Assembly (NCBI RefSeq): GCF_016735515.1 | Contig: NZ_JAERQZ010000001.1 | Span: 248,001-312,000 of the forward strand | Source: Piscinibacter sp. HJYY11 | Lineage (GTDB): Bacteria > Pseudomonadota > Gammaproteobacteria > Burkholderiales > Burkholderiaceae_C | Direction: 5' to 3' | Length of the DNA: 64,000 nucleotides | In this document: positions 27,029 through 62,633 of the stretch, piece after piece | How positions within the stretch are numbered: position 1 is the first letter of the stretch | Layout: each line of letters opens with the position of its first letter | Translations under genes and position numbers: made by a program | The notes under the pieces: generated by a model | Seen by the model: the letters and a program-made list of their open reading frames with translations, nothing else | Databases searched by the model: none | Told to the model about the DNA's origin: nothing

Positions 27029-27820
27029 TCAGCGTGCCAGGGCTTGTGCGAGGGGCAGGCGCTGAAAGCCTTGCCCCGTGAGACGCAGGACTTCGGCGCG
27101 ATGGGGCGCATGGTCCAGCTCCCAATCGGACAGGACGTGCCGGTCGCAGCCGTCACCCAGCGGCAGCGAGGCAGGGCGGTGGGTATGACCATGCACCATG
27201 GTGGTCGAGGATGCGGCATGCAGCCAGCGCAGCGCCTCGGGCCCATCCACGTCGGCCCACTCGTCGGGTGAGGTCTGCAAACGCTTCTTGGCCTCGCTTT
27301 GCTGGCGCACCTGGCGCGCGTAGTCGCGGCGCGCTGCCAGCGGCTGCGCCAGGAACTGCTGCTGCCACGCCGGGCTGCGCACCATCGCGCGGAACTTCTG
27401 GTACTCGGTGTCGGCGAGGCAGAGCGCGTCACCATGGGTGAGCAGCACGCGTTGGCTGAACGCCGTGAGCAGCGTGGGGTCTGCGAGCGGCGTCATGCCG
27501 CAGTCTTGCAGCAATTTCGCACCGACGAGGAAGTCGCGGTTGCCGACGAGAAACGCGAGGCTTCGCGTGGCCGAAGCGTCGCGCAGCACCCGCGCGCATT
27601 CGGCCTCGAAGCCTTCGAAGCGCGAGTCGTCGCCGACCCACACTTCGAACAGGTCGCCCAGGATGAACACCGCATCGGCCGGCGTGTCTTGCATGTACGA
27701 GGCCCAGGCCTCGTAGGTGCGCGGTGTGTCCGCGCTCAGGTGCAGGTCGGAGATGAAGTCGATGCGCTGCCAGCGCGCATCGGCATGGAGCTCGGGCGGC
27801 GCGGCAAGCGTCTCACTCAT
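27029..27820 (-). CDS. lpxH: UDP-2,3-diacylglucosamine diphosphatase
   Basis: Mn-dependent peripheral membrane hydrolase that makes lipid X in lipid A synthesis, 263 residues. Metallophosphoesterase motifs are complete: ISDLHLS, FILGDLFEVWVGDD, GNRDF, LTHGDALC and VHGHTHRP. The N-terminus is about 15 residues longer than E. coli LpxH. It is 14 bases downstream of ppiB. Confidence 0.95.
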   Translation of the reverse strand: MSETLAAPPELHADARWQRIDFISDLHLSADTPRTYEAWASYMQDTPADAVFILGDLFEVWVGDDSRFEGFEAECARVLRDASATRSLAFLVGNRDFLVGAKLLQDCGMTPLADPTLLTAFSQRVLLTHGDALCLADTEYQKFRAMVRSPAWQQQFLAQPLAARRDYARQVRQQSEAKKRLQTSPDEWADVDGPEALRWLHAASSTTMVHGHTHRPASLPLGDGCDRHVLSDWELDHAPHRAEVLRLTGQGFQRLPLAQALAR

Positions 27821-49215: not shown

Positions 49216-49644
49216 ATGCAAACGGTATCCGAGGTGATGACCCGCAACGTCGAGGTCATCGCGCCCGAAGAGTCGCTGCAGCGCGCTGCCCAGCTGATGG
49301 ACGAACTGAACGTCGGCGCACTGCCGGTGTGCAACGGAAAGAAGCTGCTGGGCATGATCACCGACCGCGACATCACGGTGCGCGCCGTCGCCGCAGGCCA
49401 GGGGCCGGCGGAGACCTGCGTGTCCGACGTGATGAGCGAGCGCGTGCGCTGGGTCAGCGAAGACGACAGCACCGAGACTGCCGCGCACCAGATGAGCGAC
49501 ATGCAGATCCGCCGGCTGCCGGTGCTCAATGCACGCCACGAGCTCGTGGGCATCGTGTCGCTGGGCGACCTGGCCACGCACGACACGCAGCATGCCGACG
49601 AGGCCCTGCGCGAGATCTCCACACCTTCGCAGCCGGACCGCTGA
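49216..49644 (+). CDS. Tandem CBS-domain protein
   Basis: A 142-residue protein made of two CBS domains (VSEVMTRNVEVIAPEESLQRAAQLMDELNVGALPV...ITDRDI; VSDVMSERVRWVSEDDSTETAAHQMSDMQIRRLPV...VSLGDLA). CBS pairs bind adenosine nucleotides. Free-standing versions are common in stress and signalling loci, but the partner is unknown. GGAG lies upstream of the ATG. Confidence 0.92.
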   Translation: MQTVSEVMTRNVEVIAPEESLQRAAQLMDELNVGALPVCNGKKLLGMITDRDITVRAVAAGQGPAETCVSDVMSERVRWVSEDDSTETAAHQMSDMQIRRLPVLNARHELVGIVSLGDLATHDTQHADEALREISTPSQPDR

Positions 49645-50611: not shown

Positions 50612-51727
50612 TCATTCGCGCGGCAGGCTCACGTCGAAGCGCGTGGGCTGCCCCGGCTCCGACGAGACCTGGATCGTGCCGCCGTGCGCCTGCACGACCT
50701 GCTGCACGATGTAGAGCCCAAGCCCCAGGCCTTCGGTGCGGTTGCTCTGCCGCTGCCCGCGCCGGAATGGGTCGAAGATCGACGGCAGCAGCTCGGCGGG
50801 GATGTTGCCCTCGTTGAGCACCGACATCACCACCCGGTCGCTGCGGCGGCCGTCGAGCTTCACGGTCACGGCGTTGCCGGTGCCGTGGCGCAGCGCGTTG
50901 CCGATCAGGTTGGAGGCGACCTGCACCAGTCGGTCAGCGTCCCACGCGCCCTGCAGCTTGCCCTCGGTCTGCAGCTCGACCTGCCGGTCGGGGTTGAGCA
51001 CCTGGCGCTCCTGGATCACGCCCTGCACGAGCGAAGCCAGGTCGACCGGCGCGCGCGTGATCGGGATGCCGTGGCCCAGGCGCACCCGGGTCACGTCAAG
51101 CAGGTCCTCGATCATGCGGCCCATCCACTTGGCGCTGCGCGCGATGCGCCCGCCGATGACCTGCGCGTCTTCGTCGGCGCGCTTCTCGAGGATCTTGGCC
51201 GAGAGCTGGATGGCCGAGAGGGGGCCCCGCAGGTCGTGGCTCAGCACCGCGGTGAACATCTCCTGGATGCGCAGGGAGTTGGTGCGCTCCTGCAGCTCCC
51301 ACGCGAGCTGCTGCTTCTGCCGCCACAACTGGAAGAAGACCTCGGCCTTGCTCTTGAGGATGTGCGGCTCGATGGGTTTGAAGAGGAAGTCGACCGCGCC
51401 GCTCTCGTAGCCCTGGAACTGGCGATGCCGGTCGCTGCTGCCGGCGGTGACGAAGATGATGGGCACGTCGCGCGTGCGCTGCACGCCGCGCATCATCTCG
51501 GCGAGCTGGAAGCCGTCCATCTCGGGCATCTGCACGTCGATCAGCGCGAGCGCCACTTCGTGCACCAGCAGGATCTCCAGCGCTTCGGTGCCCGAGCGGG
51601 CCTGCAGCAGCTCCACCTCGTCGTCGGCGAGCAGGGCCGACAGGGCGTGCAGGTTCTCTGCCAGGTCGTCGACCAGCAGGCACTTGACCTTCGGGCGTGG
51701 TGCGGGGTGGCGGTTGTCGAGGTTCAT
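50612..51727 (-). CDS. Receiver-histidine kinase (REC-HisKA-HATPase)
   Basis: A 371-residue soluble protein. The N-terminal receiver domain has phospho-acceptor Asp64 (ALIDVQMPEMDG). A short coiled coil leads to the HisKA domain with His164 (FTAVLSHDLRGPLSAIQ). The HATPase has NLIGNALRH and EGLGLGLYIVQQV. The reversed order (receiver before kinase) suggests phosphate enters through the receiver. The ATG overlaps the cheB stop (ATGA). It is the last gene of the rpoN operon. Confidence 0.93.
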   Translation of the reverse strand: MNLDNRHPAPRPKVKCLLVDDLAENLHALSALLADDEVELLQARSGTEALEILLVHEVALALIDVQMPEMDGFQLAEMMRGVQRTRDVPIIFVTAGSSDRHRQFQGYESGAVDFLFKPIEPHILKSKAEVFFQLWRQKQQLAWELQERTNSLRIQEMFTAVLSHDLRGPLSAIQLSAKILEKRADEDAQVIGGRIARSAKWMGRMIEDLLDVTRVRLGHGIPITRAPVDLASLVQGVIQERQVLNPDRQVELQTEGKLQGAWDADRLVQVASNLIGNALRHGTGNAVTVKLDGRRSDRVVMSVLNEGNIPAELLPSIFDPFRRGQRQSNRTEGLGLGLYIVQQVVQAHGGTIQVSSEPGQPTRFDVSLPRE

Positions 51728-52308
51728 GCTGCGGTGGCGGCCAGTTTGGCGATGAGTTCGGCGATGCCGGTCAGCGGCAGCACCTGGGCGGCGGGGCTCG
51801 CACGCAGTGCCGATTCGGGCATGTAGGGGGAGGGTGCCTCCGAGGGCTGCTGCACGGCCGTGAGGCCGCCGGCACGGTGCACGGCAGCCAGACCCGCGGC
51901 GCCGTCCTGGCTGGCGCCGGTGAGCACCACGGCGAGCAGGTGTTCGCCGTAGACGTCGGCAGCGGATTCGAACAGCACGTCGATCGAAGGCCGCGAGAAG
52001 TGCACCGGCTCGTCGACCGAGAGCGCGAAGCTCGGCCCCTCGTCGACCAGCAGGTGGTAGTCGGCCGGCGCGAAGTAGAGCGTGCCGGGCTCGATGGGTG
52101 CCTTGTCGCAGGCCTCGCTCACCGGCAGTGCGCATTGGCGCGCGAAGATCTCGACCAGCAGGCTCGGCTTCTCGCGCGGCAGGTGCAGCACCACGATCAC
52201 CGGCACCTGCAGATCGGCGGGCAGCGCGGGCAGCAGGACCGCGAGCGCGTCGACCCCACCGGCCGAGCCGCCGATCACCACGGCCTGGATTCGGGGCATG
52301 GCACTCAT
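51724..52308 (-). CDS. cheB: CheB-type protein methylesterase without receiver domain
   Basis: A 194-residue catalytic domain of CheB. The triad is Ser15 (VIGGSAGGVDAL), His42 (VVLHLPREK) and Asp135 (LTGASQDGAAGL). The N-terminal receiver of chemotaxis CheB is absent, so its activity cannot be switched by CheA in the usual way. It overlaps cheR upstream and the kinase gene downstream, both by ATGA. No chemoreceptor or cheA/cheW is in the window. Confidence 0.93.
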   Translation of the reverse strand: MSAMPRIQAVVIGGSAGGVDALAVLLPALPADLQVPVIVVLHLPREKPSLLVEIFARQCALPVSEACDKAPIEPGTLYFAPADYHLLVDEGPSFALSVDEPVHFSRPSIDVLFESAADVYGEHLLAVVLTGASQDGAAGLAAVHRAGGLTAVQQPSEAPSPYMPESALRASPAAQVLPLTGIAELIAKLAATAA

Positions 52309-53135
52309 CCTTCGCTGCGCCTCTGGTAGATGCGCTCTTCGGCCACGAAGTCGTCGAAGGCGTCGCGGTGGACCGAAAAGCGCAGCGACTCCTTGCTGCC
52401 CAGCCCCAGGAAGCCCTTGCGGCACAACGCGCCGGCAAAGAGCCCCAGCGCGCGGTCCTGCAACTGCCGGTCGAAGTAGATGAGCACGTTGCGGCACGAG
52501 ACCAGGTGCACCTCGGCGAACACGCTGTCGGTCGCGAGGCTGTGGTCCGAGAAGACCATCTGCTGCCGCAGCGACTTGTCGAACACCGCGCGGCCATAGG
52601 CGGCGGTGTAGTGGTCGGAGAGCGACGAGTGGCCGCCGCTCTTCTGGTGGTTCTGCGTGTAGAGCGCGATCTGCTCCAGCGGGTAGACGCCCGCCTCGGC
52701 GCGCTTCAAGGCATCGGTGTTGATGTCGGTGGCGTAGATCAGCGTGCGCTCGAGCAGGCCCTCCTCGCGTAGCAGGATGGCCAGCGAGTAGGCCTCCTCG
52801 CCCGCACTGCAGCCCGCCACCCAGACCTTGAGCGACGGGTAGGTGCGCAGCAGCGGCACCACCTCGTGGCGCAGCGCCCGGTAGTAGCCCGGGTCGCGGA
52901 ACATCTCGCTCACCTGCACCGTGAGGTAGTCGAGCAGCGGCGGGAAGGCGCTGGGGTCGTGCAGCAGCTTGTCCTGCAGCTGCGAGAGCGTGCTGCAGCC
53001 GAAGCGCGTCATCGCAGTGCCCAGGCGCCGCTTGAGCGAAGCGGTGGCGTAGCCGCGGAAGTCGTAGTGGTACTTGTGGAAGATCGCGTCGATGAGCAAT
53101 CGAAGCTCGATGTCCTGGTCCCGAGAGATGGGCAT
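52305..53135 (-). CDS. cheR: CheR-type protein glutamate methyltransferase
   Basis: A 276-residue SAM-dependent methyltransferase of the chemoreceptor type. It has an N-terminal helical CheR_N domain and a catalytic domain with SAM motif VWVAGCSAGEEAYSLAI and VHLVSCRNVLIYFD. It is placed between the hybrid kinase and cheB. Without a chemoreceptor nearby, a kinase coiled coil is a possible substrate. Confidence 0.94.
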   Translation of the reverse strand: MPISRDQDIELRLLIDAIFHKYHYDFRGYATASLKRRLGTAMTRFGCSTLSQLQDKLLHDPSAFPPLLDYLTVQVSEMFRDPGYYRALRHEVVPLLRTYPSLKVWVAGCSAGEEAYSLAILLREEGLLERTLIYATDINTDALKRAEAGVYPLEQIALYTQNHQKSGGHSSLSDHYTAAYGRAVFDKSLRQQMVFSDHSLATDSVFAEVHLVSCRNVLIYFDRQLQDRALGLFAGALCRKGFLGLGSKESLRFSVHRDAFDDFVAEERIYQRRSEG

Positions 53136-53156
53136 GGGGTGGTGGCTCGGTGGGTG

Positions 53157-56651
<3,495 letters not shown>

Positions 56652-56745
56652 GGAATGCTTGTTTTCAGCTCGTGGAAGGGTCTCGGTCAGGAGCGGATGA
56701 TGAAGGCATCCGCCAACCTGCGGGCGCGGGCGGTATTTTTGGCCC

Positions 56746-57729
56746 TCACAGGAACAGCACCCTGAAGTGGATCGCGCCGCGCAGCCGCCAGTAGACCGCC
56801 ACGAAGGGGATCAGCGCCGAGGTGGCCAGCACCTCCAGCACGTGCGACGGGCTGCGGCTGGTGTCGCGCAGCCGCTCGACGGTCAGGGTCAGCACCAGCA
56901 CCAGCAACGTGAGGCCGCACGCGGAGGCGATCTCCGGCTGGCCCGCAAAGGGCAGCAGCACCATCGCCAGCGCCAGCGCGACGATGAGGTAGTAGTTCCA
57001 CGGCGGCGCATGCCGGATGCGCTGGCGGTACAGCCGCGGGTGCTTCTTGTAGAGCAGGGCGTCGTAGAAGGTGCTGCGCTGCAGGGCCAGGCTCAGGCCC
57101 CAGGGCGCGGCGCGCACCGGGTGCACCACCTCCGCCCGGGAGCTGCGGCCCACGTGGCCGGCCTGCGTCATCAGGCGGAACTGCAGGTCGGCGTCTTCAC
57201 GGCCGGGGTGGGCGAAACGTTCGTCGAAGCCGTTGACCCGCACCAGCGCCCAGTGCCGCACGAAGACATTGGCCGTCACGAACTCGGCGCGCGCGAGCTG
57301 CGCCGCGGTGTTGCGCGCGTGGTCGGTGGTCTCGCCGCGCAGCGGCACGCTCACCCGGCCGCACATCGCCACCCAGTCGTGGTGGATGCGCATGGCGCGT
57401 TCGCCTTCGGCCAGCCAGGTGGGCGCGGGCACGGCGTCGTCGTGGGTGAAGGCGATCAGCTCGCCGCGGGCGGCACGCCAGCCCACGTTGCGGGCGAGCG
57501 CGGGGCCGCGGCCGTTGGCCGGCCTCAGGTAGCGCAGCTCGGCGGCGAGAGGCGCGCCTTCGCGGATCGAGTCGACCAGGTGGCGCGTGGCGTCGTCATG
57601 GCCGTCGTCGACCACGATCACCTCGAAAGCATCGGGATCGAAGCGCTGGGAGAGCACGGCCGTGAGACAGCGCAGCAGGTGCTGCGGGCGCTTGTCGGTG
57701 AGGATGACAACCGAGATGCGCGGGGCCAT
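56746..57729 (-). CDS. Glycosyltransferase family 2, membrane-anchored
   Basis: A 327-residue enzyme. The GT-A domain has [22 protein letters not shown] and the acidic metal site [15 protein letters not shown], plus [10 protein letters not shown] and [10 protein letters not shown]. The C-terminal third has two or three membrane helices ([29 protein letters not shown]). It lies 17 bases after rpoN and 94 bases before the hybrid kinase gene. Product unknown; a surface polysaccharide is likely. Confidence 0.88.
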
Positions 57730-57746
57730 CTGTCTCTCTGGCCCCT

Positions 57747-59195
57747 TCAGGCCCCAGCCCGGCGGCGCTCCACGGCGTCGACGTTCAGCAGATGGCGGTA
57801 TTTCGTCACCGTGCGGCGGGCCACCACGAAGCCTTGCTGCGCCAGCTGGCGGGTGATCTCGGCATCCGACAGCGGGGCACCGGGTTTCTCGTTGTCGATC
57901 ATGTCCTTGATGAGCCCGCGGATGGCGGTGCCCGAGAAAGCGGTGCCGCTGGTGGCCGTCATCGCGCGCGAGAAGAAGTACTTGAGCTCGAACACGCCCG
58001 AGGGCGTGGCCATGTACTTGTTGTTCGTGACGCGCGAGACGGTCGACTCGTGCACGCCCACCTCTTCGGCGATCTCTTTCAGGCCCATGGGCTTCATCGC
58101 GAGCGGGCCGTAGTCGAAGAAGTGGTGCTGGCGCTTCACGATGGCCTGGGCCACGCCGAGGATGGTGGCGAAGCGCTGCTCCACGTTGCGCAGCGTCCAG
58201 CGGGCCTCGCGCAGCTGCGAAGCCAGCTCGGGGTGCTGGGCCTGCTGGTGGCGCTGGAACATCTCGGCATACACGCGGTGCAGCCGCACCTTGGGCACGA
58301 TCGCCGGGTTGAGCGAGACCGTCCACACGTTGCGCACCTTCTTCACGATCACGTCGGGCGTGATGTAGCGGATGTCGGCGGAGCCGAAGCGCCAGCCCGG
58401 CCGCGGGTCGAGCCGGCGGATGCGCGCGCAGGCCGCGGCCACCGCCTCGACCGGCCGGCCCACCTGCTTGGCGAGCGTCGCCACGTCCTTGTGGGCCAGG
58501 CTCTCCAGCTTCTCCGACACTAGCAGGCGCACCAGCTCGCGCTCCTGCGGGTCTTCGATGCCGTCGAGCTGCAGCAGCAGGCACTCGACCACGCTGCGGG
58601 CGCCCACGCCGGCCGGCTCGAGCGACTGCACGCGCTTGAGCGCGATCTGCAGCTCGGGCAGCGTGACGGCCGGGTCGAGCTCGATGACCGGGATCAGCTC
58701 GCCCAGGTCGGCCAGGCGCAGGTAGCCGTCGTCGTCGAGCGACTCGACGATGGCCTCGGCCAGCGTCATGTCGCGCGGCGAGAGCGGCAGCACGTGCAGC
58801 TGGCGCAGGAGGTATTCGCTGAGCGAGGTCTCGGCGGCCACGCGGTTCATCGGCGAGCTGTCGAGGTCGTCGCTGCGCGGGGTGTCGGAGGGGCCGGCGG
58901 TCTGCCAGCTGTCGCGGGCATCGTCGCCCTCGTCGTCGTGGGCGGCGGTGGAGAGGGGCGTGCTTTCCAGGGCGCTGGCGTGCGTCGCTTCGGGCACCAC
59001 CAGGTCGGGCGTGGCGACGGCCTCGCCGGTCGGCTCGTCGTCCACGGTGTCGAGAAAGGGGTTGCTGTCGGCTGCGGCCTGCACCTCATGGGCGAAGTCG
59101 AGCGAAGACAACTGGAGCAGGCGTACGGCTTGCTGCAAACGCGGGGAGAGCCCTTGCTGCTGGCGCTGCTCGGTGTGCAAGTACATCGAAGTCAT
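57747..59195 (-). CDS. rpoN: RNA polymerase sigma-54 factor (RpoN paralogue)
   Basis: Complete 482-residue sigma-54. Region I is Gln/Leu-rich (GLSPRLQQAVRLLQLSSLDF). An acidic variable region II runs about 48-115. The core-binding region precedes the DNA-binding HTH (LKEIAEEVGVHESTVSRVTNNKYM). The RpoN box is ARRTVTKYR at about 459-467; the usual sequence is ARRTVAKYR, so Ala is Thr here. The setting (GT2, hybrid kinase, CheR, CheB) is not the usual lptB-rpoN-hpf-ptsN cluster, which suggests a second rpoN copy. A strong inverted repeat covers its start codon. Confidence 0.95.
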   Translation of the reverse strand: MTSMYLHTEQRQQQGLSPRLQQAVRLLQLSSLDFAHEVQAAADSNPFLDTVDDEPTGEAVATPDLVVPEATHASALESTPLSTAAHDDEGDDARDSWQTAGPSDTPRSDDLDSSPMNRVAAETSLSEYLLRQLHVLPLSPRDMTLAEAIVESLDDDGYLRLADLGELIPVIELDPAVTLPELQIALKRVQSLEPAGVGARSVVECLLLQLDGIEDPQERELVRLLVSEKLESLAHKDVATLAKQVGRPVEAVAAACARIRRLDPRPGWRFGSADIRYITPDVIVKKVRNVWTVSLNPAIVPKVRLHRVYAEMFQRHQQAQHPELASQLREARWTLRNVEQRFATILGVAQAIVKRQHHFFDYGPLAMKPMGLKEIAEEVGVHESTVSRVTNNKYMATPSGVFELKYFFSRAMTATSGTAFSGTAIRGLIKDMIDNEKPGAPLSDAEITRQLAQQGFVVARRTVTKYRHLLNVDAVERRRAGA

Positions 59196-59233
59196 TGAAG
59201 GCCGTGTGATGTGAAGGGATGGCGGCCTTCAAT
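59193..59233 (-). promoter_or_regulatory. Inverted repeat enclosing the rpoN translation start
   Basis: Perfect 11-bp inverted repeat (59194-59204 ATTGAAGGCCG with 59223-59233 CGGCCTTCAAT) with an 18-base loop. On the rpoN mRNA the first two bases of the start codon lie in the downstream arm, and no Shine-Dalgarno is outside the stem. It could control translation initiation. Confidence 0.55.
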
Positions 59234-59416
59234 GCAACGACCGTGCCTCGGCGTTTCGCGCACCGCCGGCATCGGCCGCGAGCCCGCATGTTTGCTCGCG
59301 TTGCGCGGCTCGGGCTCACGCCGGCCACGCAGGGTCGAACGGCCCGGCGTGGAAGACTTTGCCGGTCGCTCGCAGCTTTTGCTGCAAACGGCGTGCCGCT
59401 GGAGCGGCGCAGCCGA

Positions 59417-60418
59417 TCACTCCGCGCCGACGCTGCCGGTGATCGGCAACACGATGCCGGTGATGTAGCTTGCACACACCGGCGACGCGAGGAACACGAA
59501 GGCCGGCGAGATCTCTTCAGGCTGCGCAGCGCGCTTCATCTGGGTCTTCTTGCCGAACTCCGCCACGTCCTGCGCGGACTTGTCGGCCGGGTTGAGCGGC
59601 GTCCACACCGGCCCCGGCGCCACCGCGTTGACGCGGATGCCCTTGTCGATCAGGTTGCTGGCGAGCGACTTGGTGAAGGCGTGGATCGCACCCTTGGTCG
59701 CCGAGTAGTCGAGCAGCTGCGCGCTGCCCTGCAGGCCGGTGACCGATCCGGTATTGATGATGCTCGCGCCTTCGCGCAGGTGGGGCAGGGCGGCGCGCGC
59801 CATGTGGAAATAGCCGTGCACGTTGGTCCGCAGCGTCTCGTCGAGGCGCTCGTCGGTGATGTCTTCGAGCGAGGCCGCGTGCTCCTGGAAGGCGGCGTTG
59901 TTGACGAGGATGTCGAGCTTGCCGAAGGCCTTCACCGTCTCGTCGACGGCCTTGCGGCAGAAGGCGGCGTCCTTCACGTCGCCGGGGATGAGCAGGCAGC
60001 GGCGGCCTTCCTGCTCGACGTGGCGCTGCGTCTCCTCGGCGTCCTCGTGCTCGTCGAGGTAGACGATGGCCACGTCTGCCCCTTCGCGGGCGAAGAGCAC
60101 CGCCACGGCTCGGCCGATGCCGGAGTCGCCGCCGGTGATGATCGCCACCCTGTCCTGCAGCTTGTGGCTGCCTTCGTAGTCGGGGGCGAGGAACTGCGGC
60201 TTGAGCTGCAGGTCGGCTTCAAGGCCGGGCTTTTCCAGGTGCTGGGCGGGCAGCTTGGCGGGCTGCTCGCGCGCGCCGGCCTGCACGGGGGCCGACTCCT
60301 TCTGCTTCGCTTCGGGCTTGGCGGCCTGGTCGCGCTGGTCCTGGCTGCGCTGGATCTTGCGCTGCTGCTGGACGGTCGCGTCGGTCGGGGCTCGGGGCTT
60401 GTCTTGTCGGTCAGGCAT
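59417..60418 (-). CDS. SDR-family oxidoreductase with Gln/Lys-rich N-terminus (YghA-like)
   Basis: A 333-residue dehydrogenase. An 80-residue hydrophilic N-terminal extension (MPDRQDKPRAPTDATVQQQRKIQRS...) precedes the SDR domain with TGGDSGIGRA, NNAAFQ, NTGSVTG and LDYSATKGA. The layout matches YghA-type and stress-associated SDR proteins (general-stress aldehyde reductases). AAGGAA precedes ATG 60418. It is divergent from the NtrC-type gene. Confidence 0.9.
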   Translation of the reverse strand: MPDRQDKPRAPTDATVQQQRKIQRSQDQRDQAAKPEAKQKESAPVQAGAREQPAKLPAQHLEKPGLEADLQLKPQFLAPDYEGSHKLQDRVAIITGGDSGIGRAVAVLFAREGADVAIVYLDEHEDAEETQRHVEQEGRRCLLIPGDVKDAAFCRKAVDETVKAFGKLDILVNNAAFQEHAASLEDITDERLDETLRTNVHGYFHMARAALPHLREGASIINTGSVTGLQGSAQLLDYSATKGAIHAFTKSLASNLIDKGIRVNAVAPGPVWTPLNPADKSAQDVAEFGKKTQMKRAAQPEEISPAFVFLASPVCASYITGIVLPITGSVGAE

Positions 60419-60570: not shown

Positions 60571-60715
60571 AAGCCTTCGACAACGACGCAATTCGGTCAC
60601 CACAACAACACCGAAGCCCCGGTCACGAGCCGGGCGCATCGGGCGAAAGGAGACCTCGCGGCAATTCCTACAGGGTTGCCACTCCAACCGATTCAGTAGT
60701 ACTGGAGCAAACGGA

Positions 60716-62116
<1,401 letters not shown>

Positions 62117-62180: not shown

Positions 62181-62633
62181 ATGAGCCACGATGACATCGT
62201 CGATACCTTGAATGAGCTGGTCGAGACCTCGAAAGACGGCGAACTCGGCTTCACCGCGTGTGCCAAGCACGTGCAGTCGAGCGACCTGCGCGATCTCTTC
62301 CTGCGCCGCGCCGAGGAGTGCCGCAAAGCGGCGAGCGAGCTGCAGACCCTGGTGCTGGAGTACGGTGGCAAGCCGGACTCCGGCGGCTCGGCCACGGGTG
62401 CGTTGCACCGCGGCTGGGTGGCGGTGCGCGGCTCACTCGCGGGTTACAGCGATCACGCGATGCTGGAAGAGTGCGAACGCGGCGAAGACGCCGCGCTCGC
62501 ACGCTACCGCGCCGCGCTTCGCGAGGAGGCCCTGCCCGAGCCGGTACGGGCGGTCATTGCCCGCCAGCAGCTGGGCGTGCAGGCCAACCACGACCAGATC
62601 AAGCGCTTGCGCGACATCGACAAGGCAGCCTGA
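62181..62633 (+). CDS. DUF2383-type four-helix protein (PA2169-like)
   Basis: A 150-residue all-helical, ferritin-like fold protein. The N-terminus (DDIVDTLNELVETSKDGELGFTACAKHVQSSDLRDLFLRRAEECRKAASELQTLV) matches the PA2169/DUF2383 family. The family is linked to stress conditions but has no proven activity. It lies 64 bases after the NtrC-type gene and ends before a terminator. Confidence 0.88.
   Translation: MSHDDIVDTLNELVETSKDGELGFTACAKHVQSSDLRDLFLRRAEECRKAASELQTLVLEYGGKPDSGGSATGALHRGWVAVRGSLAGYSDHAMLEECERGEDAALARYRAALREEALPEPVRAVIARQQLGVQANHDQIKRLRDIDKAA

Follow-up and report, generated by a model that had tools for sequence, protein, structure and literature searches.

The question which this locus raises is whether a second gene for sigma-54 and the signalling genes behind it belong to one system. 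In the window (the whole stretch of 64,000 nucleotides from Piscinibacter sp. HJYY11, contig NZ_JAERQZ010000001.1, positions 248,001 to 312,000; source genome 5.62 Mb in two contigs) six genes follow one another on the minus strand. These are rpoN2 (57747-59195), encoding a sigma-54 of 482 amino acids with the Pfam domains AID, CBD and DBD, a family-2 glycosyltransferase gene (GT2, 56746-57729) starting 17 bp past rpoN2, and a four-gene module composed of a hybrid kinase gene (53157-56651; 1164 amino acids, CHASE3-GAF-HisKA-HATPase-3xREC, an architecture like that of BmsA), cheR for a methyltransferase (52305-53135), cheB for a methylesterase of 194 amino acids which consists of the methylesterase domain alone, without a receiver (51724-52308), and finally a REC-HisKA-HATPase kinase gene (50612-51727). 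An NtrC-type sigma-54 activator (receiver, AAA+ domain with GSFTGA loop, Fis-type helix-turn-helix (HTH)) is encoded on the opposite strand (60716-62116, plus), 1.5 kb from the rpoN2 start. The original prediction had united signal input, an adaptation pair and the sigma factor in one transcript, and its description of the layout is exact in the strand and coordinates of all six genes, the position of the activator, the 21-base gap between hybrid kinase and cheR and the two ATGA overlaps. However, the observed gene content, linkage statistics, conserved sites and phylogeny argue for two unrelated units which adjoin here, a sigma-54 cascade with RpoN2 and a BmsA-type module as its accidental neighbour, and this reading is considered likely.

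Linkage was examined in 80 named rpoN2 loci with up to 10 kb per side, 70 of them at least 17 kb long. The set includes several close relatives, in part shares contigs with the further loci mentioned below and was not de-duplicated. It falls into a closer group (L127-L166, at least 49 % identity) and a distant group (L167-L206, at most 48 %), and two members of the latter (L203, L204) fall with the closer group on the tree. Orthologues of the hybrid kinase, CheR, CheB and the REC-kinase (thresholds 400, 150, 120 and 180 bits) occur in none of the 80 loci, and none was found in 20 further rpoN2 loci, which hold weak relatives alone (CheB/CheR with 31-41 % identity in L036 and L055, plus shared kinase domains). 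At E 1e-20, weaker CheR/CheB relatives are present in L127, L128 and L203 (L036 and L127 are one contig) and REC-kinase-like matches in 15 of the 80 loci. GT2 accompanies rpoN2 in two of the 80. The six-gene operon was therefore ruled out as a conserved unit: the rpoN-CheR/CheB-hybrid kinase linkage expected by the original prediction is lacking, and among the genomes examined the module stands beside rpoN2 in this genome alone. In the same-genus genome G119 the kinase lies on contig C9 and the rpoN2 copies on C48 and C21.

The CBS-domain gene on the far side of the module (49216-49644, plus strand, Pfam CBS) lies, where found, on the strand opposite rpoN2. Its distance past the rpoN2 start is 1.4-5.2 kb in six loci, in two others 6.2 and 8.2 kb, and in the window 9.6 kb; in three loci it stands upstream of rpoN2. 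The 6 kb of the module lie between rpoN2 and the CBS gene like a possible insertion, for which the spacing is too variable to serve as proof. CheB/CheR relatives of another family were seen near rpoN2 in L127 and L128 (Rhizobacter), L203 (Variovorax), L055 and L104; the gene of this family has a -24/-12-like site in front in L128, and both the palindrome described below and such a site in L055.

Away from rpoN2 the module is a stable unit. Orthologues of the hybrid kinase were searched in 120 genomes of the family (23 of them with a match of about 50 % identity or more), and the 20 stretches taken represent 19 kinase loci and one rpoN2 locus. The full order of kinase, cheR, cheB and REC-kinase is kept in 17 of the 19 kinase loci, the exceptions being L099, which is cut by a contig end, and L095 with the kinase alone; relatives of rpoN2 or GT2 were not found in any of the 19 at E 1e-10. 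The four genes are present in genomes without rpoN2, and two rhizobial plasmids carry them in identical order, overlapping or almost touching. In composition, with genes for a CHASE3-GAF hybrid kinase, CheR, CheB and a second kinase in succession, the unit corresponds to a BmsA-type module. In Pseudomonas the BmsA cluster likewise joins a CHASE3/GAF hybrid kinase, CheR, CheB and another, adjacent hybrid kinase (Lee et al. 2016, as cited in PMC8175716), so that the statement that no system of this composition had been described fails for the four-gene part. The likeness is one of composition, and the part of PMC8175716 concerned with the cluster mentions no rpoN. The four genes would act as a self-contained signalling module of this type.

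The canonical adaptation pair is not matched, as CheB has no N-terminal receiver. No chemoreceptor substrate is encoded among the six genes; no search for receptors was made in the rest of the genome. Between GAF and HisKA the kinase has a Glu/Gln-rich coil (residues 391-487), which shows a mean column conservation of 0.73 in 21 kinase sequences, compared with 0.48 for CHASE3, 0.53 for GAF and 0.87 for HisKA, and bears EE pairs at seven-residue (heptad) spacing. Because CheR and CheB are in the operon and a receptor is absent from it, the simplest assumption is that the target which both enzymes probably methylate is, instead of a chemoreceptor, this Glu-rich coil within the kinase. Over alpha- and betaproteobacteria the coil is better conserved than the sensor domains, and it resembles a built-in methylation helix.

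The position of the rpoN gene outside the lptB locus had been taken as a sign of a paralogue, and this is borne out by a second rpoN gene in the genome, rpoN1 (C1:2985737-2987230), located behind lptA and lptB. Since that copy follows lptA/lptB and the two proteins share 41 % identity, the gene of the window encodes a true paralogue, RpoN2. It is a complete sigma-54 with AID, CBD, DBD and RpoN box; both rpoN genes score above the cut-off of NCBIfam PRK12469, and rpoN1 alone above those of PRK05932.1-5 and.1-2. The nearest named relatives found belong to Rhizobacter (64-66 % identity), and plasmid records contained no RpoN2 of this type at the sensitivity used (best 45.3 % identity). In an unrooted tree a branch supported by 100/99 splits 28 RpoN2 rows from 12 RpoN1 and two gammaproteobacterial rows. 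The RpoN2 of the window groups with those of Ralstonia and Paraburkholderia, apart from RpoN1, and R. pickettii RpoN2 lies on the same side of the branch. The unrooted tree is compatible with a single origin of the RpoN2 lineage but is no proof of it. In region I, the contact surface of sigma-54 for activators (PMC4676750), RpoN2 has a signature of its own (R19 and V24 in 80 of 80, F34 in 79 of 80 sequences), whereas RpoN1 has Q, I and L at the matching positions in 12 of 12. The RpoN box reads ARRTVTKYR in all 40 closer RpoN2 proteins and ARRTVAKYR in 35 of the 40 distant ones, and the DNA-binding half contains the lineage-specific residues V386, N391, S409 and T464.

While the module does not travel with rpoN2, the activator does. 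Among the 120 genomes RpoN2 (at least 49 % identity) occurs in 20, the activator (E 1e-110) in 20 and both in 18 (Fisher 3.2e-17), which upholds the earlier view of the nearby NtrC-type protein as a relevant partner. The 80 rpoN2 loci contain the activator in 39 cases, a DUF2383 gene (PA2169-family four-helix protein; 62181-62633, plus, in the window) in 40 and a short-chain dehydrogenase/reductase (SDR) oxidoreductase gene (59417-60418, minus) in eight; the CBS gene is found in 11 of 40 closer and none of 40 distant loci. In 38 genomes without RpoN2, relatives of CBS were found in two and of DUF2383 in 14. The loop of the activator reads GSFTGA in 28 of 31 homologue rows and GAFTGA in one, with no match in two; its HTH is near-constant in most homologues (exceptions L122, L124, L126 and L039). 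In L125 and at L049:10455-11817 (same rpoN2 as L155, Aquincola tertiaricarbonis) the homologue appears split into two frames, which may reflect sequencing error or decay.

In front of rpoN2 two conserved elements were identified. A -24/-12 promoter-like site (AGGCACGGTCGTTGCA, 59233-59248, minus) is located on the rpoN2 strand 53 bp 5' of the start, and a palindrome without strand (TTGCAGCAA, 59379-59387), a candidate upstream activating sequence (enhancer) for the activator, lies beyond it. With L164 excluded, whose match begins at residue 107, a -24/-12 site is present within 150 bp of rpoN2 in 34 of 39 closer and 21 of 40 distant orthologues. The palindrome TTRCNGYAA occurs further upstream in 28 of the 39 closer ones, and both elements together in 25/39 and 2/40, respectively; in random windows each element appears at about 2 % (palindrome 2.2 %, and 1 % in the distant set). 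Of 22 upstream regions (those of the window, L036-L055 and L104), 13 contain the stricter palindrome TTGC-N-GCAA, for which 100 shuffles gave a mean of 0.22 and a maximum of 2. A scan of about 460 kb (the window with an adjoining 38 kb, plus 21 further rpoN2 loci) listed 22 palindrome-promoter pairs, of which 16 lie at rpoN2. The base at -11 of the rpoN2 site is G or A in 36 of 38. A general -24/-12 scan of the window was rejected as decisive, with 19 hits versus 9-13 in eight shuffles, so that the weight comes from conservation alone.

Some further observations concern these elements. A second -24/-12-like site of uncertain role (TGGCATTCCGTTTGCT, 60706-60721, minus) is directed at the SDR gene, 291 bp 5' of its start. 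In the whole genome TTRCNGYAA is hardly above the reversed control (98 versus 72). Among the matches listed (56 of 98 places) it clusters round the window, with nine in 70 kb (p 0.0024), at window positions 27506, 33950, 59130 and 59379 and at C1:323503-343074 of the own genome; the clustering is thin (p 0.01-0.06 at other window sizes). Two TTGCNGCAA palindromes at L107:3863-7441 (own genome C1:332.9-336.4 kb) stand either side of a site with C at -11, which precedes a pyridine-nucleotide oxidoreductase gene adjoining a type VI secretion FHA gene. In L046 and L053 rpoN2 is divergent to a topoisomerase IB cluster gene, which may use the same enhancer region.

Sites of the form GGCAY-N5-YTGCC, with C at -11, are enriched round rpoN2. 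The 40 closer rpoN2 loci (784 kb) contain 173, compared with 32 after shuffling and 7 for the reversed pattern. Kinase loci had three in 208 kb (13 loci, genomes lacking RpoN2) and one in 63 kb (four loci, genomes bearing it), and the 49 kb of rpoN1 loci scanned had none. Within 75 bp, 76 of the 173 lead into a ribosome site, ATG and open reading frame (ORF), as do 20 of 173 in reverse reading and 239 of 6000 random positions. Among the products of the genes behind them are DUF2383, CBS, hemerythrin, BON, PRC-barrel, OmpA-like barrel, receiver, AsmA, Crp-type and transglycosylase-associated proteins (domains determined on one member of each family). Less biased rates come from the four families which the window itself had supplied in advance. 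For DUF2383 genes, 10 of 16 closer and 3 of 24 distant loci show a site no more than 150 bp away, as do none of 15 loci from RpoN2-lacking genomes (10/16 versus 0/15, Fisher 2.5e-4); in closer loci the values are 7/11 for CBS, 2/7 for SDR and 0/15 for the activator, and in distant loci 0/21 for the activator and 0/1 for SDR. The rate of 55/85 for the target families listed above is biased, because these were found through the site itself. Of 94 of these putative promoters, 13 have the palindrome upstream, and TTGC-N-GCAA was counted 12 times compared with 0.5 in shuffles. The enriched sites of the distant group end in A, G or T (193 versus 43 shuffled).

The source genome as a whole contains 149 sites with C at -11 (reversed control 56), and the window itself none. 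Nine are concentrated in 26 kb (C1:1264872-1291158; 0.7 expected from the genome average; region covered by L225:1-18001 and L226:1-15001, own genome C1:1262500-1295000). This region surrounds a PAS-hybrid kinase gene which overlaps a paralogue of the activator at C1:1.274 Mb. The nine sites precede genes for small stress-type and envelope proteins; among the genes behind them are those for a DUF4142 protein, a glycine-zipper protein, small Gln-rich proteins (by eye), a family-9 glycosyltransferase, a sugar epimerase, a histidine kinase, an Omp85/TamA-like protein and a polyketide-cyclase-like protein. Of 14 stretches with activator loci away from rpoN2, nine contain such sites; L113, L114, L116, L125 and L126 have none. 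Genome-wide counts of GGCAYNNNNNYTGCC were rejected as a measure of regulon size, as they fail to separate RpoN2-bearing from RpoN2-lacking genomes.

From these data a cascade can be drawn up, for which we infer the binding partners, the order from RpoN1 to RpoN2 in this organism and the regulon. The phosphorylated GSFTGA activator (60716-62116 or the paralogue at C1:1.274 Mb) would bind TTRCNGYAA upstream of rpoN2 and open its -24/-12 promoter, most likely with RpoN1 at first. RpoN2, with its lineage-specific activator-contact residues, would then serve a stress and envelope regulon. The neighbouring activator is a candidate binder of the palindrome, its HTH being, like the palindrome, near-constant in most homologues. 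RpoN1 together with the activator is placed ahead of RpoN2 because R. solanacearum rpoN2 has a predicted promoter and is no longer expressed when rpoN1 is mutated. Tentatively, and with somewhat more doubt than confidence for the whole, the RpoN2 of Rhizobacter, Pelomonas, Rubrivivax and Hydrogenophaga is proposed to have become a distinct sigma-54 whose promoter preference has shifted, in a two-step cascade with a GSFTGA activator recognising TTRCNGYAA. The rpoN2 promoter (mostly G/A at -11) would come first, and RpoN2 would then read the -11C promoters of a clustered stress/envelope regulon (DUF2383, CBS, hemerythrin, BON, PRC-barrel, outer-membrane and SDR genes), a preference tied to V386, N391, S409 and T464 and to R19, V24 and F34. 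Palindrome, variant promoters and regulon are predictions from sequence.

Several points weigh against this picture of a cascade beside an unrelated module. The palindrome is near-absent in the distant group (2/40). In the window the starts of the DUF2383, CBS and SDR genes have no -24/-12 site at a distance of 150 bp or less. Of the two Rhizobacter loci, L127 has a single -11C site and L128 just two, and the -11C pattern alone defines no regulon, because whole-genome counts do not track RpoN2. RpoN2 occurs without a close activator in G053 and G011 (G011 match partial) and the activator without RpoN2 in G016 and G104 (the latter 76 % complete). As one rpoN2 copy of G053 still has both palindrome and promoter, another activator could bind there. 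No kinase adjoins the activator of the window, while 11 of 31 homologue rows have one within about 700 bp (sought by tblastn; a loose H-box search missed known ones). Finally, the gaps of 17 bp between rpoN2 and GT2 and 94 bp between GT2 and the kinase, in which a simple scan listed no minus-strand terminator-like site, permit read-through from rpoN2 into the module, and co-transcription is possible. The module kinase is also commoner in RpoN2 genomes (9/20 versus 14/100, Fisher 0.003), yet unlinked, and genome size may be the cause. Together with the shared strand and the other-family CheB/CheR relatives near rpoN2 (three of 80 loci at E 1e-20, L055 and L104), these last findings would fit a single functional operon in which the module governs RpoN2 or the genes that it serves. 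With no module orthologues in 80 plus 20 rpoN2 loci, separate contigs in G119 and the module elsewhere without rpoN2, such an operon appears very improbable.

For the cascade itself two other explanations are to be considered. The conserved site and palindrome directly 5' of rpoN2 would also suit an autoregulated RpoN2, which together with its activator would drive its own transcription independently of RpoN1. The loss of rpoN2 expression without rpoN1 in R. solanacearum (PMC4371752) argues against it, as do the -11 bases: since G or A prevails at rpoN2 (36/38) and many island sites have C, the two look as if read by different sigma factors, and autoregulation is held to be unlikely. Slightly less unlikely, though still clearly disfavoured, is that GGCAY-N5-YTGCC marks operators of another regulator and not sigma-54 promoters. 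The sites resemble a GGCA-N7-TGCC palindrome, their genome-wide numbers fail to tell RpoN2-bearing from RpoN2-lacking genomes as stated above, the pattern outnumbers its reversed version in the majority of the 120 genomes regardless of rpoN content, and sites facing away from the gene are frequent as well (18 of 85 upstream regions). However, the GG-N10-GC spacing is kept, the sites point at genes at the rates given above, and they are directional, because only one of 67 GGCA-N7-TGCC sites has complementary bases at positions 5 and 11.

Much of the framework is already known: extra RpoN proteins, the RpoN2 of Burkholderiales, RpoN1-dependence in Ralstonia, the stress link, pairs of sigma-54 and cognate activator, and the BmsA cluster. 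In R. solanacearum RpoN2 is likewise a second sigma-54 which is not interchangeable with RpoN1 (PMC4371752; PMC4676750). Its gene has a predicted sigma-54 promoter and is no longer expressed in an rpoN1 mutant (PMC4371752); the -24/-12 promoter is listed with the number 63 in a table, probably the distance to the start. Two GSFTGA activators, Rsp1667 and Rsp1668, which have the loop in common with the activator rows of the window, are listed as possible rpoN2 regulators (PMC4676750). The lineage of the window differs by TTRCNGYAA, the T in the RpoN box (ARRTVTKYR) and the -11C island sites from the Ralstonia/Paraburkholderia set, which has mostly A in the RpoN box and A, G or T at -11; R. solanacearum itself is outside this set. 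RpoN2 of B. pseudomallei is linked to stress via katE (PMC4745423), a likeness by description, and the part of that paper dealing with it mentions neither an activator nor a palindrome. In Cereibacter sphaeroides RpoN3 and AprX also form a pair of one sigma-54 paralogue with one cognate activator, but this system is alphaproteobacterial and controls xrpA, and no stress island or sigma-54 cascade is mentioned in the part of PMC11999139 describing it. The related Aquincola tertiaricarbonis RN12 has four rpoN paralogues, RpoN1 among them, in a study concerned with PEP-CTERM and floc genes (PMC9850573). A limited search of the openly licensed literature found no published account of the palindrome, -11C island promoters or an RpoN2 stress island.

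The role of R. solanacearum RpoN2, studied by knock-out, has been called 'enigmatic' (PMC4371752), and the conserved partners described here suggest a job for this sigma factor. The conserved context supplies it with an activator and a candidate enhancer, and also with a promoter variant and a gene set, and because it names these partners, the role of RpoN2 becomes directly testable. A specificity for C at -11 has a precedent, since an effect of this position is cited for RpoN1 and RpoN2 of Rhodobacter (PMC4676750). If RpoN2 indeed reads the -11C promoters, it would represent a natural sigma-54 duplicate with its own promoter specificity and its own activator.

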